64,000 bases of DNA, taken from NCBI GenBank assembly GCA_009917405.1, contig QZED01000002.1, positions 1-64,000 of the forward strand, given 5' to 3'. The position numbers and the translations under genes were made by a program. The DNA comes from a bacterium c-19. Lineage in GTDB: Bacteria; Bacillota_I; Bacilli_A; Erysipelotrichales; Erysipelotrichaceae. A model generated the notes under the pieces. It searched no databases. It saw only the letters and a program-made list of their open reading frames with translations, and was not told the origin of the DNA. How positions within the stretch are numbered: position 1 is the first letter of the stretch; each line of letters opens with the position of its first letter. Positions 1-20,532 of the stretch are shown one piece after another.

Positions 1-1889
1 GCAGTATCAGGTGTCAGTGTCGCATTCACACCACGATAGATCACAATTTCTTTTTCCACATACGCAGGCTCGTAATTATCATTTCCTGTTGCCGGATCAT
101 CATCAGCCGTCGCCCGAATCGTTACCTTGTTAAACACATTATTTCCGTTATAGATTATTTGCCCACTGTCAGAATCAATTTCAATTAAGCTTGAATAACC
201 GCCGCTTTTAGAATACGTAATCTTTGTGCCTGTATTAGGTGTAGCCGTCGCAGTTTCATTCCAAGCAGTTGCCGCATCTGTCATCGATTTTTTGGTCGTA
301 TTGGGATCATCAAAAGCTACAGACAATTTCGTTTTTTCTACTGTAAATGTTGTACACACCTTTGAATTAGAAGTTGCCGCAGTCGGATCACCGTTCGCAT
401 CCACAGCACTTACACAAAACTTATAAGTTCCTGCCTTTAAACCACCATTCACTAAATCAGGTGCATCCGTTTTGATTTTCACATTAAGTGGTGTACTGCT
501 TGAAGCATTATTAGAATCTAAACCATCAACTTCAAAGTTCAAATAAGAATTATCACCATTTGTTTCCAGTGTATATGTTAATGGAGTTACACCTGTTGGA
601 TTCACAGTAACTTTTCCTACTGCCTGACCTGCATTCACATTTTTACTGAATTCATATTCCTTACCGGCACTCGCTCCACTCTGCGGTGTTTTTGTGTAAG
701 TCAGCTTATGCGGTTCAACAATCTCTAACGGCATTAAATTAGATATCGACGAGCTTTCTACCGGCAGTTGTGAACCGGCGTCATATTCCTCATTGATTAC
801 CGCAACCTGATATTTACCTACAGCTATATTATTTAAATCAACAATATAATGATTTGTACCGCTTCTTGTATTTTCTAACATTCTGTAATGAGATATTTCT
901 GTTCCTGCCTCATTATACAGAATAACTGATATCTTATTATTTGTACCAGTATTTGCGTTTACATATAAGTCAACACTTCCGTTCTTTACAATCTTACTTA
1001 TACTTTTTGTTTTACTTTCATTTTTGATATCCTGTAAAGAAGCTGTTAATGATGATTGAATTCTTAGTTTATTAGGATTCAATTCATTATTTTTACTTAG
1101 GTTACTTGTATCTATTGAATAATTATGCCAGTTTCTGTCAGTGTAAGCAGTGTTAGCCGCAAATTCAATTTTTATCTTTTTCACAGTTCCGAACGGTCGT
1201 ATGTTTGAAACATCTGTTGTAAATCCTGAAATGTCATAATAATGTTCAAAAATGCCTATAATGCAATCATCATTTGAAACTTTGCTTCCATTAGGTAAAA
1301 GTAAGTTGAAATCATCTTTAAGAAAACCTTGTACAAAAGTAGTAATGTTGCGTTCCCATCCTATTGACACTGATTTGTCATATGCACCTCTTTCATTGAT
1401 ATAGTAAGTTATATCTTTAAAAGCTCTATCATTTTTTGATAATCCAAGTGTGCCGTTATTTTTAATTTCATTATAAGTAGGAGTAAAAAAATTCCTGTTC
1501 ATAATGGATTGTTCGGTTGTATTTAATGCTATCTTATTAATCTCATTATCAATTAAAGTGTTAGGGCATATATCTGAATACTGAAAAGTGTCGGGATTTC
1601 CGTTCACATAAGATCTTATGCACCCGATAGAATCACTGTATTTTGAAAAATTCTCTTGTATCGGCTTACTGCTCATCAACACGTAATTACCGTTATTATT
1701 GTTATTACCGATATCCCATACAATTTCCTTATTATTATATTTACCTAATACAATCTTAGCCCCTTTAGGCAATTGAAAAGTAGGTGCTGATTGTGCGTTT
1801 AATATATTTCCTATATTATCTTTTGAATACATGTATGCTATAGAAAGACTACTTAATAAGCATATAAATATTATCAAAAACTTTTTCAT
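1..1889 (-). CDS. Secreted multi-domain surface protein, C-terminus beyond the left edge
   Basis: The reading frame is open from the ATG at 1889 to position 1, giving about 629 residues of a longer protein. It begins with a short lysine pair and a hydrophobic stretch (residues about 3-20), a signal peptide. Residues about 35-200 resemble the DUF6273 type of extracellular domain (LGKYNNKEIVWDIG, then a DSIGCIRSYVNG region). The rest is beta-rich with cadherin- or Ig-like repeats (for example AGKEYEFSKNVNAGQ and LKAGTYKFCVSAVD). The start was chosen because AAGGG lies 8 bases upstream; an in-frame ATG at 1898 sits too close to it. It lies 175 bases downstream of an ECF sigma gene on the same strand, so it may be its target or operon partner. 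The cell-wall anchor, if any, is outside the window. Function unknown. Confidence 0.8.
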   Translation of the reverse strand, partial: MKKFLIIFICLLSSLSIAYMYSKDNIGNILNAQSAPTFQLPKGAKIVLGKYNNKEIVWDIGNNNNNGNYVLMSSKPIQENFSKYSDSIGCIRSYVNGNPDTFQYSDICPNTLIDNEINKIALNTTEQSIMNRNFFTPTYNEIKNNGTLGLSKNDRAFKDITYYINERGAYDKSVSIGWERNITTFVQGFLKDDFNLLLPNGSKVSNDDCIIGIFEHYYDISGFTTDVSNIRPFGTVKKIKIEFAANTAYTDRNWHNYSIDTSNLSKNNELNPNKLRIQSSLTASLQDIKNESKTKSISKIVKNGSVDLYVNANTGTNNKISVILYNEAGTEISHYRMLENTRSGTNHYIVDLNNIAVGKYQVAVINEEYDAGSQLPVESSSISNLMPLEIVEPHKLTYTKTPQSGASAGKEYEFSKNVNAGQAVGKVTVNPTGVTPLTYTLETNGDNSYLNFEVDGLDSNNASSSTPLNVKIKTDAPDLVNGGLKAGTYKFCVSAVDANGDPTAATSNSKVCTTFTVEKTKLSVAFDDPNTTKKSMTDAATAWNETATATPNTGTKITYSKSGGYSSLIEIDSDSGQIIYNGNNVFNKVTIRATADDDPATGNDNYEPAYVEKEIVIYRGVNATLTPDT

Positions 1890-2064
1890 AGATTTCATCC
1901 CTTCATTAAATTAAAGCATACTATGGGTTTAATTCAAGAGTTAGAACAATAAGCATCTATAAATGTTCAAATTATTTTCATTTTTTTAGTTTTTTTAAAC
2001 AGCAATAATAAAACAACTATAAAATAATGCGTGAAAAATATTAAAACAATGAAAAAATAAAGCT

Positions 2065-3123
2065 TTAATATACATAAGCTTCAAATAGCGCATTCCAATT
2101 ATTTTCATTTAATTTATTATAATAAATACCTCCGTATGACTTTAAGGCTTCATACAAAGGAAGTATTTCTTTCAATTCACTGTCTTTTTTCGCAGCCATT
2201 TCTACATCACAATGAGCAAAATCAATTAATGCATAATAAACATCTTCGGCTCGATCATATGTAATATTTTGATATACAATTGGGGTAAACGGATACAGCT
2301 TCATCTTTATTTCACTGTCATTATCACTAAATATATCCTGATGAAAATAAGTATAGAATCCAACTCCTGCACATACCGCAATACAGCTAGTGATCAAAAC
2401 CATTTTACCGAATGCAGTACGAATAAAAGCGATCAAACGCTCATGAAATGTTGTTGTAAGTACATTTGATTGAACTACTGAATCACTTTGATATAATGCA
2501 GCCAATGCCGGCACAAGCGCATGACCTTTAAAGGACAGCTTAATATCATTACGTCTCTCATAAGTTGCAATCATATCATTCAGCTTTACCTTCGCCATAT
2601 GAATGCGTGATTTTACCGTACCGATCGGAATATCCATTATTTGAGCAATTTCATTTAATGTATAATGCTCATAATACATCAAAACTAAAGCAGACTGCTG
2701 GTCTATAGGCAGCTGCGAAATAAAATGATCTAATAATTCCTTATCACTTTGAAAATGCATGAAATCATGCGGATTCATATCCATTCGCTCGTCCGCTGCT
2801 AGATCAACGAACACAGAATCATCCGGATCAAAGCTGATAGTTTTATTGCGTGAGAATAATCTGGTCGCTCTTGAAAATGCGATTTTATTTAACCAAACCT
2901 TGAACAGCTTTGGTTCCTTTAGCGATTTTAGGGATAGTTGTGCTTGTATAAAAGTATCTTGTACAATATCTTTCGCATCGGCCTCATTGCGTGCCAGCTT
3001 CAATGCATAATGATAGATTGAAGTAGAAAATCGTTCATACAGCTGTGCAAATGCTAACGAATCATCGTCTATTGCCCGCTGTACCAGTTCCTGTACACTC
3101 ATACTTTTATAATTTTCCTGCAT
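2065..3123 (-). CDS. ECF-type RNA polymerase sigma factor with fused membrane-anchored C-terminal domain
   Basis: Residues about 22-92 form sigma region 2 (AKDIVQDTF core) and about 130-185 form region 4, a helix-turn-helix ending IPIGTVKSRIHMAK, as in group 4 sigma factors. A usual ECF factor ends near residue 190; this one has 352 residues, with one hydrophobic helix at about 240-260 and a roughly 90-residue tail after it. By topology the tail would face outside and could act as a built-in sensor or as a substitute for a separate anti-sigma factor; no anti-sigma gene is adjacent. The GGCGGTG ribosome binding site supports the ATG at 3123. The downstream same-strand gene encodes a secreted surface protein, a reasonable regulatory target. 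The sigma identity is firm, the sensing role is inference. Confidence 0.9.
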   Translation of the reverse strand: MQENYKSMSVQELVQRAIDDDSLAFAQLYERFSTSIYHYALKLARNEADAKDIVQDTFIQAQLSLKSLKEPKLFKVWLNKIAFSRATRLFSRNKTISFDPDDSVFVDLAADERMDMNPHDFMHFQSDKELLDHFISQLPIDQQSALVLMYYEHYTLNEIAQIMDIPIGTVKSRIHMAKVKLNDMIATYERRNDIKLSFKGHALVPALAALYQSDSVVQSNVLTTTFHERLIAFIRTAFGKMVLITSCIAVCAGVGFYTYFHQDIFSDNDSEIKMKLYPFTPIVYQNITYDRAEDVYYALIDFAHCDVEMAAKKDSELKEILPLYEALKSYGGIYYNKLNENNWNALFEAYVY

Positions 3124-8572: not shown

Positions 8573-8578
8573 AGTTAA

Positions 8579-8600
8579 AAAAGATGCCTTGGCATCTTTT
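8579..8600. terminator. Bidirectional terminator between cca and the IS607-like gene
   Basis: AAAAGATGCC/GGCATCTTTT, a perfect 10-bp stem with a 2-base centre and A/T tracts on both sides, suited to both converging genes. Confidence 0.8.
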
Positions 8601-8601
8601 A

Positions 8602-9192
8602 TTATTGCGCAATAAATTCACGAATTTTTCTTTTTGCCTTATCGGCTCTTTTACCTTCAAAATCATAATTGAAAAACTTAATAATAGAAGCGATATCACT
8701 GCAATAGTCATCACTGTCCACAATATCCTCCATATACTCTACATCACAGCCGTTTGCTTTGCATATCGTCTCGATCAGTTCATAACCGTATCGAACAAGT
8801 GAATCACGGCGCACGGCAATCAGCTTCGCTACCTTATGTTCCAAAACCAAGGAAAGCACCTCACTCAATCCTTTGCGCTTATAATCCAAACCGCTTCCGA
8901 CCTCAGAAATAATTTGATAATTCCAATCCTGATCATCCATATATTCCTTTAATAACTGTACTTGACGTTCAAGCTCATAAGACCTGCTTTTGCGATTAAC
9001 ACGGCAAAATCCGATAACCAAGCGATCTTCATTTTTAATGAATTGATCTAGTTGTTCCTTAGAATACAGCTTTCTTCCATTTTCATTTACGACTGCCGGT
9101 TTTAAGGTACCGTTGCGATCCCAATTACGCAAAGTTTGAGAACTTTTACCGATCAGATTCGCAAACTCCCCGATTCGATAATAATTTGCCAT
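8602..9192 (-). CDS. IS607-type serine recombinase (TnpA-like), active site degenerate; probable DNA-binding relic
   Basis: The 196-residue protein has the two-part plan of IS607 transposases: an N-terminal MerR-like helix-turn-helix (residues 1-55, RIGEFANLIGKSSQTLRNW) and a serine recombinase fold (57-196; ELERQVQLLKEY, VGSGLDYKRKGL, GKRADKAK). Three key positions differ from active relatives. The catalytic serine of the usual RVSS motif is Asn66 (RVNRKS), the first arginine of the DRLxR motif is Ser131 (RDSLVRYG), and the FSxRL arginine is Asp177 (FNYDFEG). Everything else is intact and uninterrupted. No tnpB and no insertion ends are seen. It is therefore probably not an active transposase but a retained DNA-binding protein; this is inference. 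ATG at 9192 has AAAGGGG upstream. Confidence 0.85.
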   Translation of the reverse strand: MANYYRIGEFANLIGKSSQTLRNWDRNGTLKPAVVNENGRKLYSKEQLDQFIKNEDRLVIGFCRVNRKSRSYELERQVQLLKEYMDDQDWNYQIISEVGSGLDYKRKGLSEVLSLVLEHKVAKLIAVRRDSLVRYGYELIETICKANGCDVEYMEDIVDSDDYCSDIASIIKFFNYDFEGKRADKAKRKIREFIAQ

Positions 9193-9221
9193 AATGACCC
9201 CTTTCATGGTAACTTCTACAT

Positions 9222-9254
9222 ATAATAGACCCATTTTTCATGAAAAAAGTTCAA
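9222..9254 (-). promoter_or_regulatory. Possible promoter with palindrome TTTTTCATGAAAAA
   Basis: On the minus strand TTGAAC (9249-9254) and TATTAT (9222-9227) are separated by 21 bases, and a perfect 14-bp palindrome (9234-9247) fills the spacer. Long spacers centred on a palindrome are typical of MerR-type promoters, and the gene downstream has a MerR-like helix-turn-helix. Autoregulation is inference. Confidence 0.4.
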
Positions 9255-9293: not shown

Positions 9294-10607
9294 TCATTTT
9301 TCACTTGTTTCTTTCGGTATTTTATCAACTGTCGCAAAACGATAGCCTTTTTGCTTCATCGCTTTAATAAAGGGATCCATCGCTAAATAATTGCCTTTAT
9401 TAGAAGGGTGCAGAAGATAAATCGCTCCGTTATGATAATGCTTTAACAATGTATTCAGTGCCTGTTCCCCGCTTACATCTTCGGCATAATCATAATACGC
9501 ATGACTCCAAAAATAATTAGAATAACCAAGATCCTGTACAAGCTTTAAACTGCGCTCACTCATCCCGCCCTTGGGAAAACGAAATACCTTTTTCATCGGT
9601 TGCCCCGTAACCTGCATATACGTTTTTTCACATTCCGTAATTTCCGAAACAAAGCGATCGATATCCTTTTCATTCGCAAGAGTCGGCATATCATAATGAT
9701 GCCAAGAATGGTTGCCGATCACATGGCCGTGAGCCACAAGATCATTGATAAATTCTGGATTATCCTTAATATAATTGCGAGTCAGGAAGAAAGTTGCCTG
9801 AACATCGTTGTCATTCAGCACACCGGCAATCTCTTTAATATACGTAATGTCATTCCCGCCCTCATCAAAGGTTAAATAAATTGTTTTGTCATCAGGCCCC
9901 ATCATATAGGCATCATACTTTGCCAAAAGACTTTCTTCGCGGCAACCTGTGGTGCGGTTATTGTTTTCACTCTTATGAAACCACCATTCCTCAGCCTTGT
10001 TATCAAACTGATCATGATTGTAATACAGCTTTTCATCTGTCGGATCTTTACATACCTCAACACTGCGCTTGATCGTTGCCGTATTGCCACTGGTATCATT
10101 AACTGTATAAGTAATTTCATACGTCCCCTGCTTATTCATATCGAGAGCAGAAGCATCGACTTTTACCTGCTTGGTTAAATCGCCGTCATATTGATCACTC
10201 GCTTGAAAACCGGGATCCTTAAAGCTTTCCTTTTCAAATACCCGCATTGGATTTTGACCGTTCAATTTAATCGTCGGAGCCGTTGTATCTACAACCTCAA
10301 CAGTTCTTACCACTGATTTATCATATGTCTCAAATGTGTAGCGAATCTTATATGTCCCGAGCTTAGCAGTATCCAAGCTGCTTTCTACAACAATATTATC
10401 ACTGTAATCATGAAAACGAAAACGCGCTGTTGCGCCGGGATCTTGGAAATCTGTATTTACCTCAACCTGTAAAGTTTGTGAATCATTCAACTTGATTTGG
10501 GGGATAAACAAACCGCTGAAAAACAACAGCTTGATTAAAGCAGCTGCCAAACCAACGCAAACTGCCGCAATAATACCGTATACTACGATCTTACATCGCC
10601 TGCTCAT
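9294..10607 (-). CDS. PdaA-like peptidoglycan/polysaccharide deacetylase with two Ig-like (DUF5011) domains
   Basis: A membrane-anchored NodB-fold deacetylase. One hydrophobic helix (residues about 8-32) is followed by two DUF5011-type domains (about 38-110 and 112-188, both with the KLGTYKIRYTF / KQGTYEITYTV strand) and a NodB domain (about 235-430). The first metal motif reads TFDEGGND rather than TFDDG, the second is HSWHH, and the third is RFPKGGMSE; this pattern resembles PdaA, which removes acetyl from N-acetylmuramic acid. Loss of the second Asp is usual in the PdaA branch. ATG at 10607 is used since AGAGGTGA lies 7 bases upstream. It lies downstream of the cell-wall cluster and a second deacetylase lies on its far side. 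Substrate assignment is by similarity only. Confidence 0.87.
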   Translation of the reverse strand: MSRRCKIVVYGIIAAVCVGLAAALIKLLFFSGLFIPQIKLNDSQTLQVEVNTDFQDPGATARFRFHDYSDNIVVESSLDTAKLGTYKIRYTFETYDKSVVRTVEVVDTTAPTIKLNGQNPMRVFEKESFKDPGFQASDQYDGDLTKQVKVDASALDMNKQGTYEITYTVNDTSGNTATIKRSVEVCKDPTDEKLYYNHDQFDNKAEEWWFHKSENNNRTTGCREESLLAKYDAYMMGPDDKTIYLTFDEGGNDITYIKEIAGVLNDNDVQATFFLTRNYIKDNPEFINDLVAHGHVIGNHSWHHYDMPTLANEKDIDRFVSEITECEKTYMQVTGQPMKKVFRFPKGGMSERSLKLVQDLGYSNYFWSHAYYDYAEDVSGEQALNTLLKHYHNGAIYLLHPSNKGNYLAMDPFIKAMKQKGYRFATVDKIPKETSEK

Positions 10608-19209: not shown

Positions 19210-20532
19210 CTACATAATTTTTCCTGCATCATTTTTACCGTATTCATATAATTCCGAAACAGTTACTAATTGAAAACCCATTTCCTGCAGCTTAGGAATC
19301 AAAATGATCGCAGCTTCGGCAGTTGATGCATATAAATCATGCATCAGTATAATGTCACCGTCCTTCACGTCCTTTATCACTTTATTTACAATTGTCTGCG
19401 CATTTCGGGAACGCCAATCCTCACTGTCAATAGTCCATGTCACAAGCTTTTTCCCTTGCGCACATTGCAACACTGTATCATTTTTAGAGCCGTACGGCGG
19501 TCTAATCACCTTCGGATATCGATTGGTGACATCATGGATTGACTCTTGGGTCGCACTGATTTCTTCTTCAATATTTGCCTTGGAAAGCGTAGTTAGCTGT
19601 TTATGCGTAAACGTATGATTTCCGATTTCATTTCCCTCTAATACCATACGCTGTAATAACTGAGGAAAATCATCGGCACGCGAACCGAGAACAAAGAAAG
19701 TGGCGGAAGCTTGATTTTCCTTTAAACAGTCTAATATGGCACTCGTATATTTTAATGTAGGACCGTCATCAAAGGTTAAGGCTACCATCGGTTTATTCTT
19801 ATCTATTTGCTTTACCGGTTCATTCAGCACATCCTGATACGGTACAAATACGCTTTCCTCTTCTTTTTCAATCGAGATCACATCTTTTAACGCCTCATAG
19901 TCAACTTCTACATACGTCCCATGATCCAACACCGTATGCGCATCAAAATAAAAGACGATTTCTCCCTTTCGTAAAATAAACTGATCAAAATTATGTGCAG
20001 CCGGTGCAGTATGAATCGCAAAGGCTTTACTGCCGCATTCCTTAGGGTACTGCGCTTTCAGCTTTTCCTGTACCATCGCACTGATCAAAGCGGTCGCTTC
20101 CTGATCAAATACATCATCATAAGCTAAAAATCGATCTTTTTTCTGATCATAAATTAAGGTTTCAATCACTTCTTTCTGACTTGTTCCGTTCATAAAAATA
20201 TCCAGCTTTACGGAAATATAGCGATCATCTTTTACATAAGACTGATAATCCACATTAAATTCATAGCGATCATCCGATTTCACAAACGGCTGTGCCAGAA
20301 AATCCTTTTTATAGCTGTGAATTATCCTTTGTATTTCTTCATCTAACGCTGTTATATCAGTTTTCGGATAAATCAAATTCATCACATACGTATCCTCATA
20401 TTCCTTTTCATGAACACTTTCACCAAATTCATGATGATCACTTTGATGATTGACTTTTAGTGATTGTGTACTCGCACACGCACCTAAAAAACAAAGTATA
20501 GATATGATTAATAGTATCCTTTTTTTATTCAT
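19210..20532 (-). CDS. PdaC-like polysaccharide deacetylase lipoprotein
   Basis: A secreted, probably lipid-anchored deacetylase: the signal ILCFLGAC gives a lipobox with the cysteine at about residue 19. Residues about 40-225 are the DUF4163/DUF3298 pair found in PdaC, with strands such as YDQKKDRFLAYDDVF. Residues about 245-430 are a canonical NodB domain with TFDDGPT, HTFTH, RPPYGSKND and the closing DIILMHDLY, so all metal and catalytic motifs are present. PdaC removes acetyl groups from N-acetylmuramic acid or chitin-like oligomers, a change that commonly gives lysozyme resistance. CAGGTGA precedes the ATG; the gene is divergent from typA and apparently alone. Confidence 0.92.
   Translation of the reverse strand: MNKKRILLIISILCFLGACASTQSLKVNHQSDHHEFGESVHEKEYEDTYVMNLIYPKTDITALDEEIQRIIHSYKKDFLAQPFVKSDDRYEFNVDYQSYVKDDRYISVKLDIFMNGTSQKEVIETLIYDQKKDRFLAYDDVFDQEATALISAMVQEKLKAQYPKECGSKAFAIHTAPAAHNFDQFILRKGEIVFYFDAHTVLDHGTYVEVDYEALKDVISIEKEEESVFVPYQDVLNEPVKQIDKNKPMVALTFDDGPTLKYTSAILDCLKENQASATFFVLGSRADDFPQLLQRMVLEGNEIGNHTFTHKQLTTLSKANIEEEISATQESIHDVTNRYPKVIRPPYGSKNDTVLQCAQGKKLVTWTIDSEDWRSRNAQTIVNKVIKDVKDGDIILMHDLYASTAEAAIILIPKLQEMGFQLVTVSELYEYGKNDAGKIM

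Follow-up and report, generated by a model that had tools for sequence, protein, structure and literature searches.

Transposase-derived DNA-binding proteins are a known kind. The nearest parallel to the case below is TldR, a group of factors whose origin lies in nuclease-dead TnpB. We found no report of a domesticated IS607 TnpA in the literature searched, in which subscription journals are thinly covered. As to the IS607 enzyme itself, the parts of PMC6188088 available to us state that changing the catalytic serine of TnpA to glycine abolishes transposition, and that TnpA as a dimer binds DNA but is chemically inactive. According to the available part of PMC4058570, by Boocock and Rice, the IS607 dimer is held in its inactive state by two acidic residues in contact with the active-site arginines. 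Here we describe a TnpA-like gene from a gut bacterium of the Erysipelotrichaceae in which the active site has been lost and the reading frame has been kept.

The window, which is the whole stretch of 64,000 nucleotides that was analysed, belongs to a 2.24-Mb draft genome (G000), and the related contigs are from uncultured Erysipelotrichaceae or Erysipelotrichales. The initial annotation named no strand; across 8602-9192 the plus strand contains stops, and it is the minus strand that reads open. The gene and its immediate surroundings comprise:

8605..9192, minus strand: catalytically dead IS607 TnpA-like protein of 196 aa, stop codon at 8602-8604 (ORF, Pfam, NCBIfam, HMMER and residue census)
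9034..9192, minus strand: MerR-type winged-helix DNA-binding domain, aa 1-53, whose helix-turn-helix (HTH, aa 4-32) is 86% identical to that of an orthologue with 45% overall identity
8605..9021, minus strand: aa 58-196, with the fold of a serine-recombinase catalytic domain and a lost active site (Pfam, HMMER and model)
9198..9204, minus strand: probable ribosome-binding site AAAGGGG ahead of the ATG at 9192 (sequence)
8577..8600, no strand assigned: AT-flanked palindrome between the TnpA-like gene and the convergent CCA-adding enzyme gene (sequence), a probable two-way terminator

Residues are numbered from the ATG at 9192; an alternative, longer frame from 9234 would place the start codon within the conserved promoter-like element described below. 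The protein has the architecture of an IS607-type transposase, a MerR-like domain followed by a serine-recombinase domain (Pfam MerR_1 at aa 5-50, Resolvase at aa 59-171), and it scores 138.8 bits against the NCBIfam model NF033518 for the IS607 family transposase, where the cut-off is 110. The description in the initial annotation, an IS607-type recombinase with an intact frame and three replaced active-site positions, is borne out. Among solved structures the closest are the IS607-type catalytic domains 3lhk, 3lhf, 3ilx, 6dgc and 6dgb. The AlphaFold model (48 alignment rows, mean pLDDT 82.3, pTM 0.59) predicts the fold of an IS607 catalytic domain plus a MerR domain, with a low-confidence C-terminal helix.

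The replaced positions are encoded as follows:

8995..8997, minus strand: AAT codon of Asn66, which takes the nucleophile position; 5/5 members of the clade described below have Asn here
8800..8802, minus strand: codon of Ser131, which replaces the first Arg in DRLxR; Ser or Thr in the clade, with a synonymous TCA/TCG change between members
8662..8664, minus strand: Asp177 codon at the helix-E Arg/Lys position, Asp or Thr in the clade

N66, S131 and D177 lie at the positions first assigned to them. In the HMMER alignment with 3lhk and the other solved IS607 catalytic domains, N66 falls on the RVS serine and S131 on the leading Arg of DRLxR. R64, D130 and R134 of the active site, and with them the second Arg of DRLxR, are retained. 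The residue census held 93 rows, 88 of them outside the clade; L104 and L109 were left out since they lie on the same contigs as L124 and L101, as were L105, L106, L182, L183 and L184 (partial or weak). In the 88 outside rows position 66 is Ser in 86, Tyr in one and a gap in one, position 131 is Arg in 87 and Asn in one, and position 177 is Arg in 61, Lys in 23 and a gap in four. The row with both the gap at 66 and the Asn at 131 (L181) is a frame full of stops, which was counted nonetheless. Asp or Thr at 177 occurs in the clade only; the earlier statement that Asp177 replaces an arginine holds as to the loss, whereas intact relatives carry Arg or Lys and not strictly Arg. The combined losses at 66, 131 and 177 occur in none of the 88 rows (0/88). 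Diagnostic of the clade is the motif DDYCSD (161-166), in which residues 161, 162 and 166 are acidic. We read the protein as having lost its function in transposition because the single change of Ser to glycine is enough to kill transposition in IS607 TnpA (PMC6188088, in the part available). Two other census members, L096 with Tyr at the Ser position and L095 with Cys at the second Arg, were considered as dead members and rejected, being single copies beside tnpB; in L096 the TnpA frame (1465-2094, minus strand) with Tyr at the catalytic Ser adjoins a full-length TnpB-like frame.

The gene was found in five of the seven genomes of the genus, the window's included, and all five share the losses. 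The four orthologues, in genomes of other species, are 97, 90, 90 and 45% identical to the window protein, with N66 in all five proteins, S or T at 131 and D or T at 177. The two genomes in which the gene is missing are 86 and 66% complete. In a tree of 79 rows (14 of the 93 census rows were dropped: five with stops, L006, whose protein is identical to L007, and eight close copies) the five carriers form one clade with support of 100/99, and the 45% identical protein from genome G002 lies inside it on a long branch. Orthologues with restored catalytic residues, named at the outset as a refutation, were looked for, and the orthologues were found to carry the same or equivalent losses instead.

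Pairwise Nei-Gojobori dN/dS of the TnpA-like gene against the window was 0.040 for G004, 0.035 for G003 and 0.042 for G006, the last two being only rough because dS is 1.2-1.5, and G002 was too distant for dS. In the same comparisons the upstream deacetylase gene gave 0.018-0.047 and a cation-efflux gene 0.040-0.051, and these are the only measurable neighbours that match the low value of the TnpA-like gene; the FAD, CCA, methyltransferase, pseudouridine synthase and other measurable flanking genes gave 0.08-0.24. Protein identities to G003 and G006 follow suit, with 90% for the TnpA-like protein, 89% for the deacetylase, 90% for the cation-efflux protein and 59-74% for the other flanking genes. 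Codons 67, 131, 134, 162, 163 and 165 have changed synonymously with their residues unchanged. Searches of the seven genomes found neither a further IS607 TnpA (at E 1e-3) nor a TnpB (PF07282, 0/7), in agreement with the earlier remark that a tnpB partner is lacking. An active mobile element would be expected in several copies or positions, usually with tnpB, whereas this gene is single-copy at a fixed locus. Fixed-locus orthologues, purifying selection and lost transposition residues are what a domesticated transposase should present, and this gene presents all three; in G002 the pairing with the deacetylase gene is the only part of the locus conserved. The proposal that catalytic loss without a frameshift reflects selection agrees with the shared losses and the dN/dS of 0.035-0.042, and we consider it very probable that the TnpA-like protein has been domesticated in some form and does not recombine DNA.

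Directly upstream of the gene lies its most constant neighbour:

9294..10607, minus strand: PdaA-like polysaccharide deacetylase with Ig-like domains, apparently membrane-anchored, in this place in 5/5 carriers

Its orthologue is present in 7/7 genomes of the genus, and it precedes the TnpA-like gene in each of the five carriers. In G001 and G005 another gene occupies the slot behind the deacetylase gene, from which the TnpA-like gene is missing, and G001 retains the gene order of the window upstream. Three neighbourhoods (L002, L003 and L004) are syntenic with the window, and in G002 the wider locus differs and only the two genes are still paired. We call the enzyme PdaA-like rather than PdaA because its score against TIGR02884 (PdaA) is 201.8 bits, under the cut-off of 298; a PdaA entry of the PDB is the best structure match. 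A second polysaccharide deacetylase-like gene lies at 19210-20532 of the window on the minus strand, about 28% identical to the first over the catalytic part.

Conservation is distributed unevenly over the protein. Between the window and G002 the DNA-binding domain (aa 1-53) is 68% identical and the HTH 86%, while the dead domain is 35.5% identical. Other IS607 TnpA supplied 1332 pairs whose catalytic domains are equally divergent (30-41% identity); their maxima were 57% for the DNA-binding part and 77% for the HTH, and 0/1332 pairs reach the window-G002 values, a comparison that is a description and not a probability because the pairs share members. This pattern points to DNA binding as the common constraint across the clade, and a conserved sequence-specific DNA-binding domain is what a transcription factor should have. 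The claim that the MerR-like part is intact likewise stood, as this part lies above the Pfam cut-offs and is conserved far beyond the dead domain. In the three close orthologues the dead domain (93.5-98.6% conserved) is slightly ahead of the DNA-binding domain (83-96%), which argues that the dead domain has a job too, and the protein may act mainly through its C-terminal domain.

Upstream of the gene a short block is strongly conserved:

9219..9254, minus strand: conserved promoter-like element TTGAAC-TTTTT-N-AAAA-GGGTCTATTATA (conservation in five genomes)

Across the five genomes 27/34 columns at 9221-9254 are invariant, versus 9/42 just upstream and 11/28 just downstream, and the strict pattern occurs exactly once in each carrier genome and not at all in the other two. 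Relaxed patterns place like elements 49-62 bp before the start codons of unrelated genes: site B precedes a protein some 490 aa long whose N-terminus is hydrophobic (7/7 genomes, G001 and G005 among them), site C a 142-aa hydrophobic protein (6/7) and site D an AAA-domain protein (6/7). The sequence of site B closely resembles that of the element ahead of the TnpA-like gene, while sites C and D are weaker and could be coincidental. The relaxed search gave 72 matches in total, fewer than the 118 of the reversed control, so promoter sharing is argued solely from cross-genome conservation at promoter positions. The simplest reading is that of a promoter type shared by few genes, maybe under an ECF sigma factor; ECF promoters have AAC and GTC cores, and an ECF sigma gene is present in G003. 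Sharing of this kind suggests that the TnpA-like gene is co-regulated with envelope genes. As a pattern across the genus, the block AACTTTTT-N6-AAA-NN-G..TCT recurs before three unrelated genes (site B: L204, L207-L210, L212, L213; site C: L211, L215, L217, L221, L233, L234; site D: L218, L224, L226, L235-L237), possibly an ECF-type sigma regulon of envelope proteins. The element is not evidence of autoregulation, because it also stands before unrelated genes, including in genomes that miss the TnpA-like gene at the locus. We also considered that 9219-9254 might be a palindromic promoter of the MerR type whose spacer is overlong. The dyad common to the four distinct versions has 6 pairs against a shuffle mean of 5.98, and 71% of 5000 column shuffles were as good. 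This operator reading was dropped since the dyad is no better than shuffles and the block is shared with unrelated genes in non-carriers; the 9222-9254 palindrome, for which the initial annotation suggested a DNA-binding assay, is likewise not supported as a binding site of the protein, the conserved block being better read as a shared promoter.

We propose that an ancestor of these Erysipelotrichaceae received an IS607 insertion behind its gene for the PdaA-like deacetylase, and that tnpB and the element ends would then have been lost while tnpA was kept as a host gene unable to cut DNA. Its product would most likely act as a dimeric, sequence-specific DNA-binding regulator of transcription, with the MerR-type domain binding DNA and the dead recombinase domain serving in dimerisation or assembly along DNA, as in the chemically inactive form of IS607 TnpA; the deacetylase or other wall genes may be among the targets. 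A control protein is favoured because the cutting residues are lost, the gene is nearly unchanged across related gut bacteria and it adjoins the gene for a cell-wall enzyme. That the protein is a domesticated DNA-binding regulator we hold with moderate confidence, and transcription factor is the most likely description of it. The fuller picture, in which a dead IS607 serine transposase lineage became a dedicated DNA-binding regulator tied to cell-wall deacetylation, expressed from the promoter of a small envelope-related regulon and forming a recombinase-derived counterpart of TldR, is put forward tentatively.

The alternative that survives best is an architectural one, in which the domesticated protein coats or bridges DNA in the manner of RacA, for nucleoid organisation or for origin or polar anchoring. 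It would fit the strong conservation of the dead, oligomerising domain among close orthologues and a neighbouring gene related to a sporulation-type deacetylase, and the available parts of PMC6188088 describe how IS607 TnpA forms a filament that spreads on DNA, and how a RacA-DNA complex helped to dock its DNA-binding domain. Patchy presence (5/7 genomes of the genus, to which the search of the order added no clade member) would, however, be unusual for a core chromosome organiser, and an array of repeated TTATAA sites was not found in the seven genomes, and we regard this role as rather unlikely.

The TTATAA sites were taken from related active IS607-type elements, in which repeats 10 and 20 bp apart lie about 40-85 bp before tnpA and are probably the TnpA binding sites of this subfamily; such loci are L107, L108, L110, L115, L118, L120, L122, L128 and L091. 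Within the genus the array is not enriched, with 12 matches in seven genomes versus 25 for the reversed control, and the ancestral end motif was rejected as the target site of the TnpA-like protein for want of an excess over the control. The same result weighs on the idea of a trans-dominant inhibitor that guards the cell against IS607 by occupying element ends or mixing with the transposase. Such a guard would suit an HTH that still resembles active relatives (L101, for instance, at 79% over aa 4-32) and a genus in which no other IS607 tnpA is left, but the seven genomes offer no substrate element, and the fixed linkage to the deacetylase gene and the conserved promoter are not expected of it, which makes it improbable.

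Recombination or nicking by way of another nucleophile, for which the retained R64, D130 and R134 could speak, is most improbable: near position 66 no Ser, Thr or Tyr is common to the five proteins (NRKSRSYE versus NGHHQKAE), two basic active-site positions are lost as well, and loss of the Ser by itself ends IS607 transposition (PMC6188088, available part). S69, named beforehand as a possible nucleophile, lies outside the motif position and is missing from the 45% orthologue (VNGHHQKAE). An ordinary decaying transposase remnant, of which the family has examples with stops (G175 and G083), is refuted by the full frame in 5/5 genomes over up to 55% protein divergence, dN/dS near 0.04 and the shared losses.

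Further members of the clade were found neither in the search of the order, nor in those of the class and the phylum (395 and 392 genomes, evenly drawn), nor in IMG/VR, nor in plasmids and phages, where only the best hits (H1, H16, H17 and H18) were judged at single residues. In the Enterocloster phage CB457P1 (L091, 3001-4789) an IS607-type TnpA overlaps with a 391-aa frame behind it, and the deposited record labels both as hypothetical proteins. Genes like the one described here are hidden by annotation, because the NCBI model, whose cut-off the protein passes, labels it 'IS607 family transposase'; searching IS607 TnpA for conserved loss of the active site could reveal more of them. TnpB, the partner protein in such elements, gave rise to RNA-guided transcription factors, and this case suggests that the recombinase too can be kept by the host once its chemistry is lost. 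The protein would also serve as a natural, chemistry-free IS607 TnpA for studying how the unusual dimer binds DNA.

Compared with the IS607-family TnpA (NF033518; IS607, IS1535, ISC1926 and ISC1904), the protein is alike in its N-terminal MerR-type winged helix and C-terminal serine-recombinase domain, and against the solved catalytic domains its model reaches 27-33% identity and target TM-scores of 0.65-0.82. It differs in having neither the nucleophile, nor two basic active-site positions, nor tnpB, and in that its gene, present as one copy, keeps a fixed place in the chromosome and is under strong purifying selection. With the MerR-family transcription factors (HspR, CueR, BmrR and Mta) it shares a DNA-binding domain above the Pfam cut-offs (MerR_1 and MerR); unlike them it has a dead recombinase domain instead of a coiled coil and a ligand domain. 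RacA, which is not known to have a recombinase domain, is alike in its MerR-like DNA-binding domain. The RacA-DNA complex also aided the modelling of TnpA on DNA, as the available part of PMC6188088 describes. By analogy TldR is the nearest parallel, since in both cases, as read here, a protein of a TnpB-bearing element would have become a DNA-binding regulator after catalysis was lost; TldR is RNA-guided (PMC13418256, available part), whereas the TnpA-like protein, being derived from a recombinase, should bind DNA through its MerR domain.
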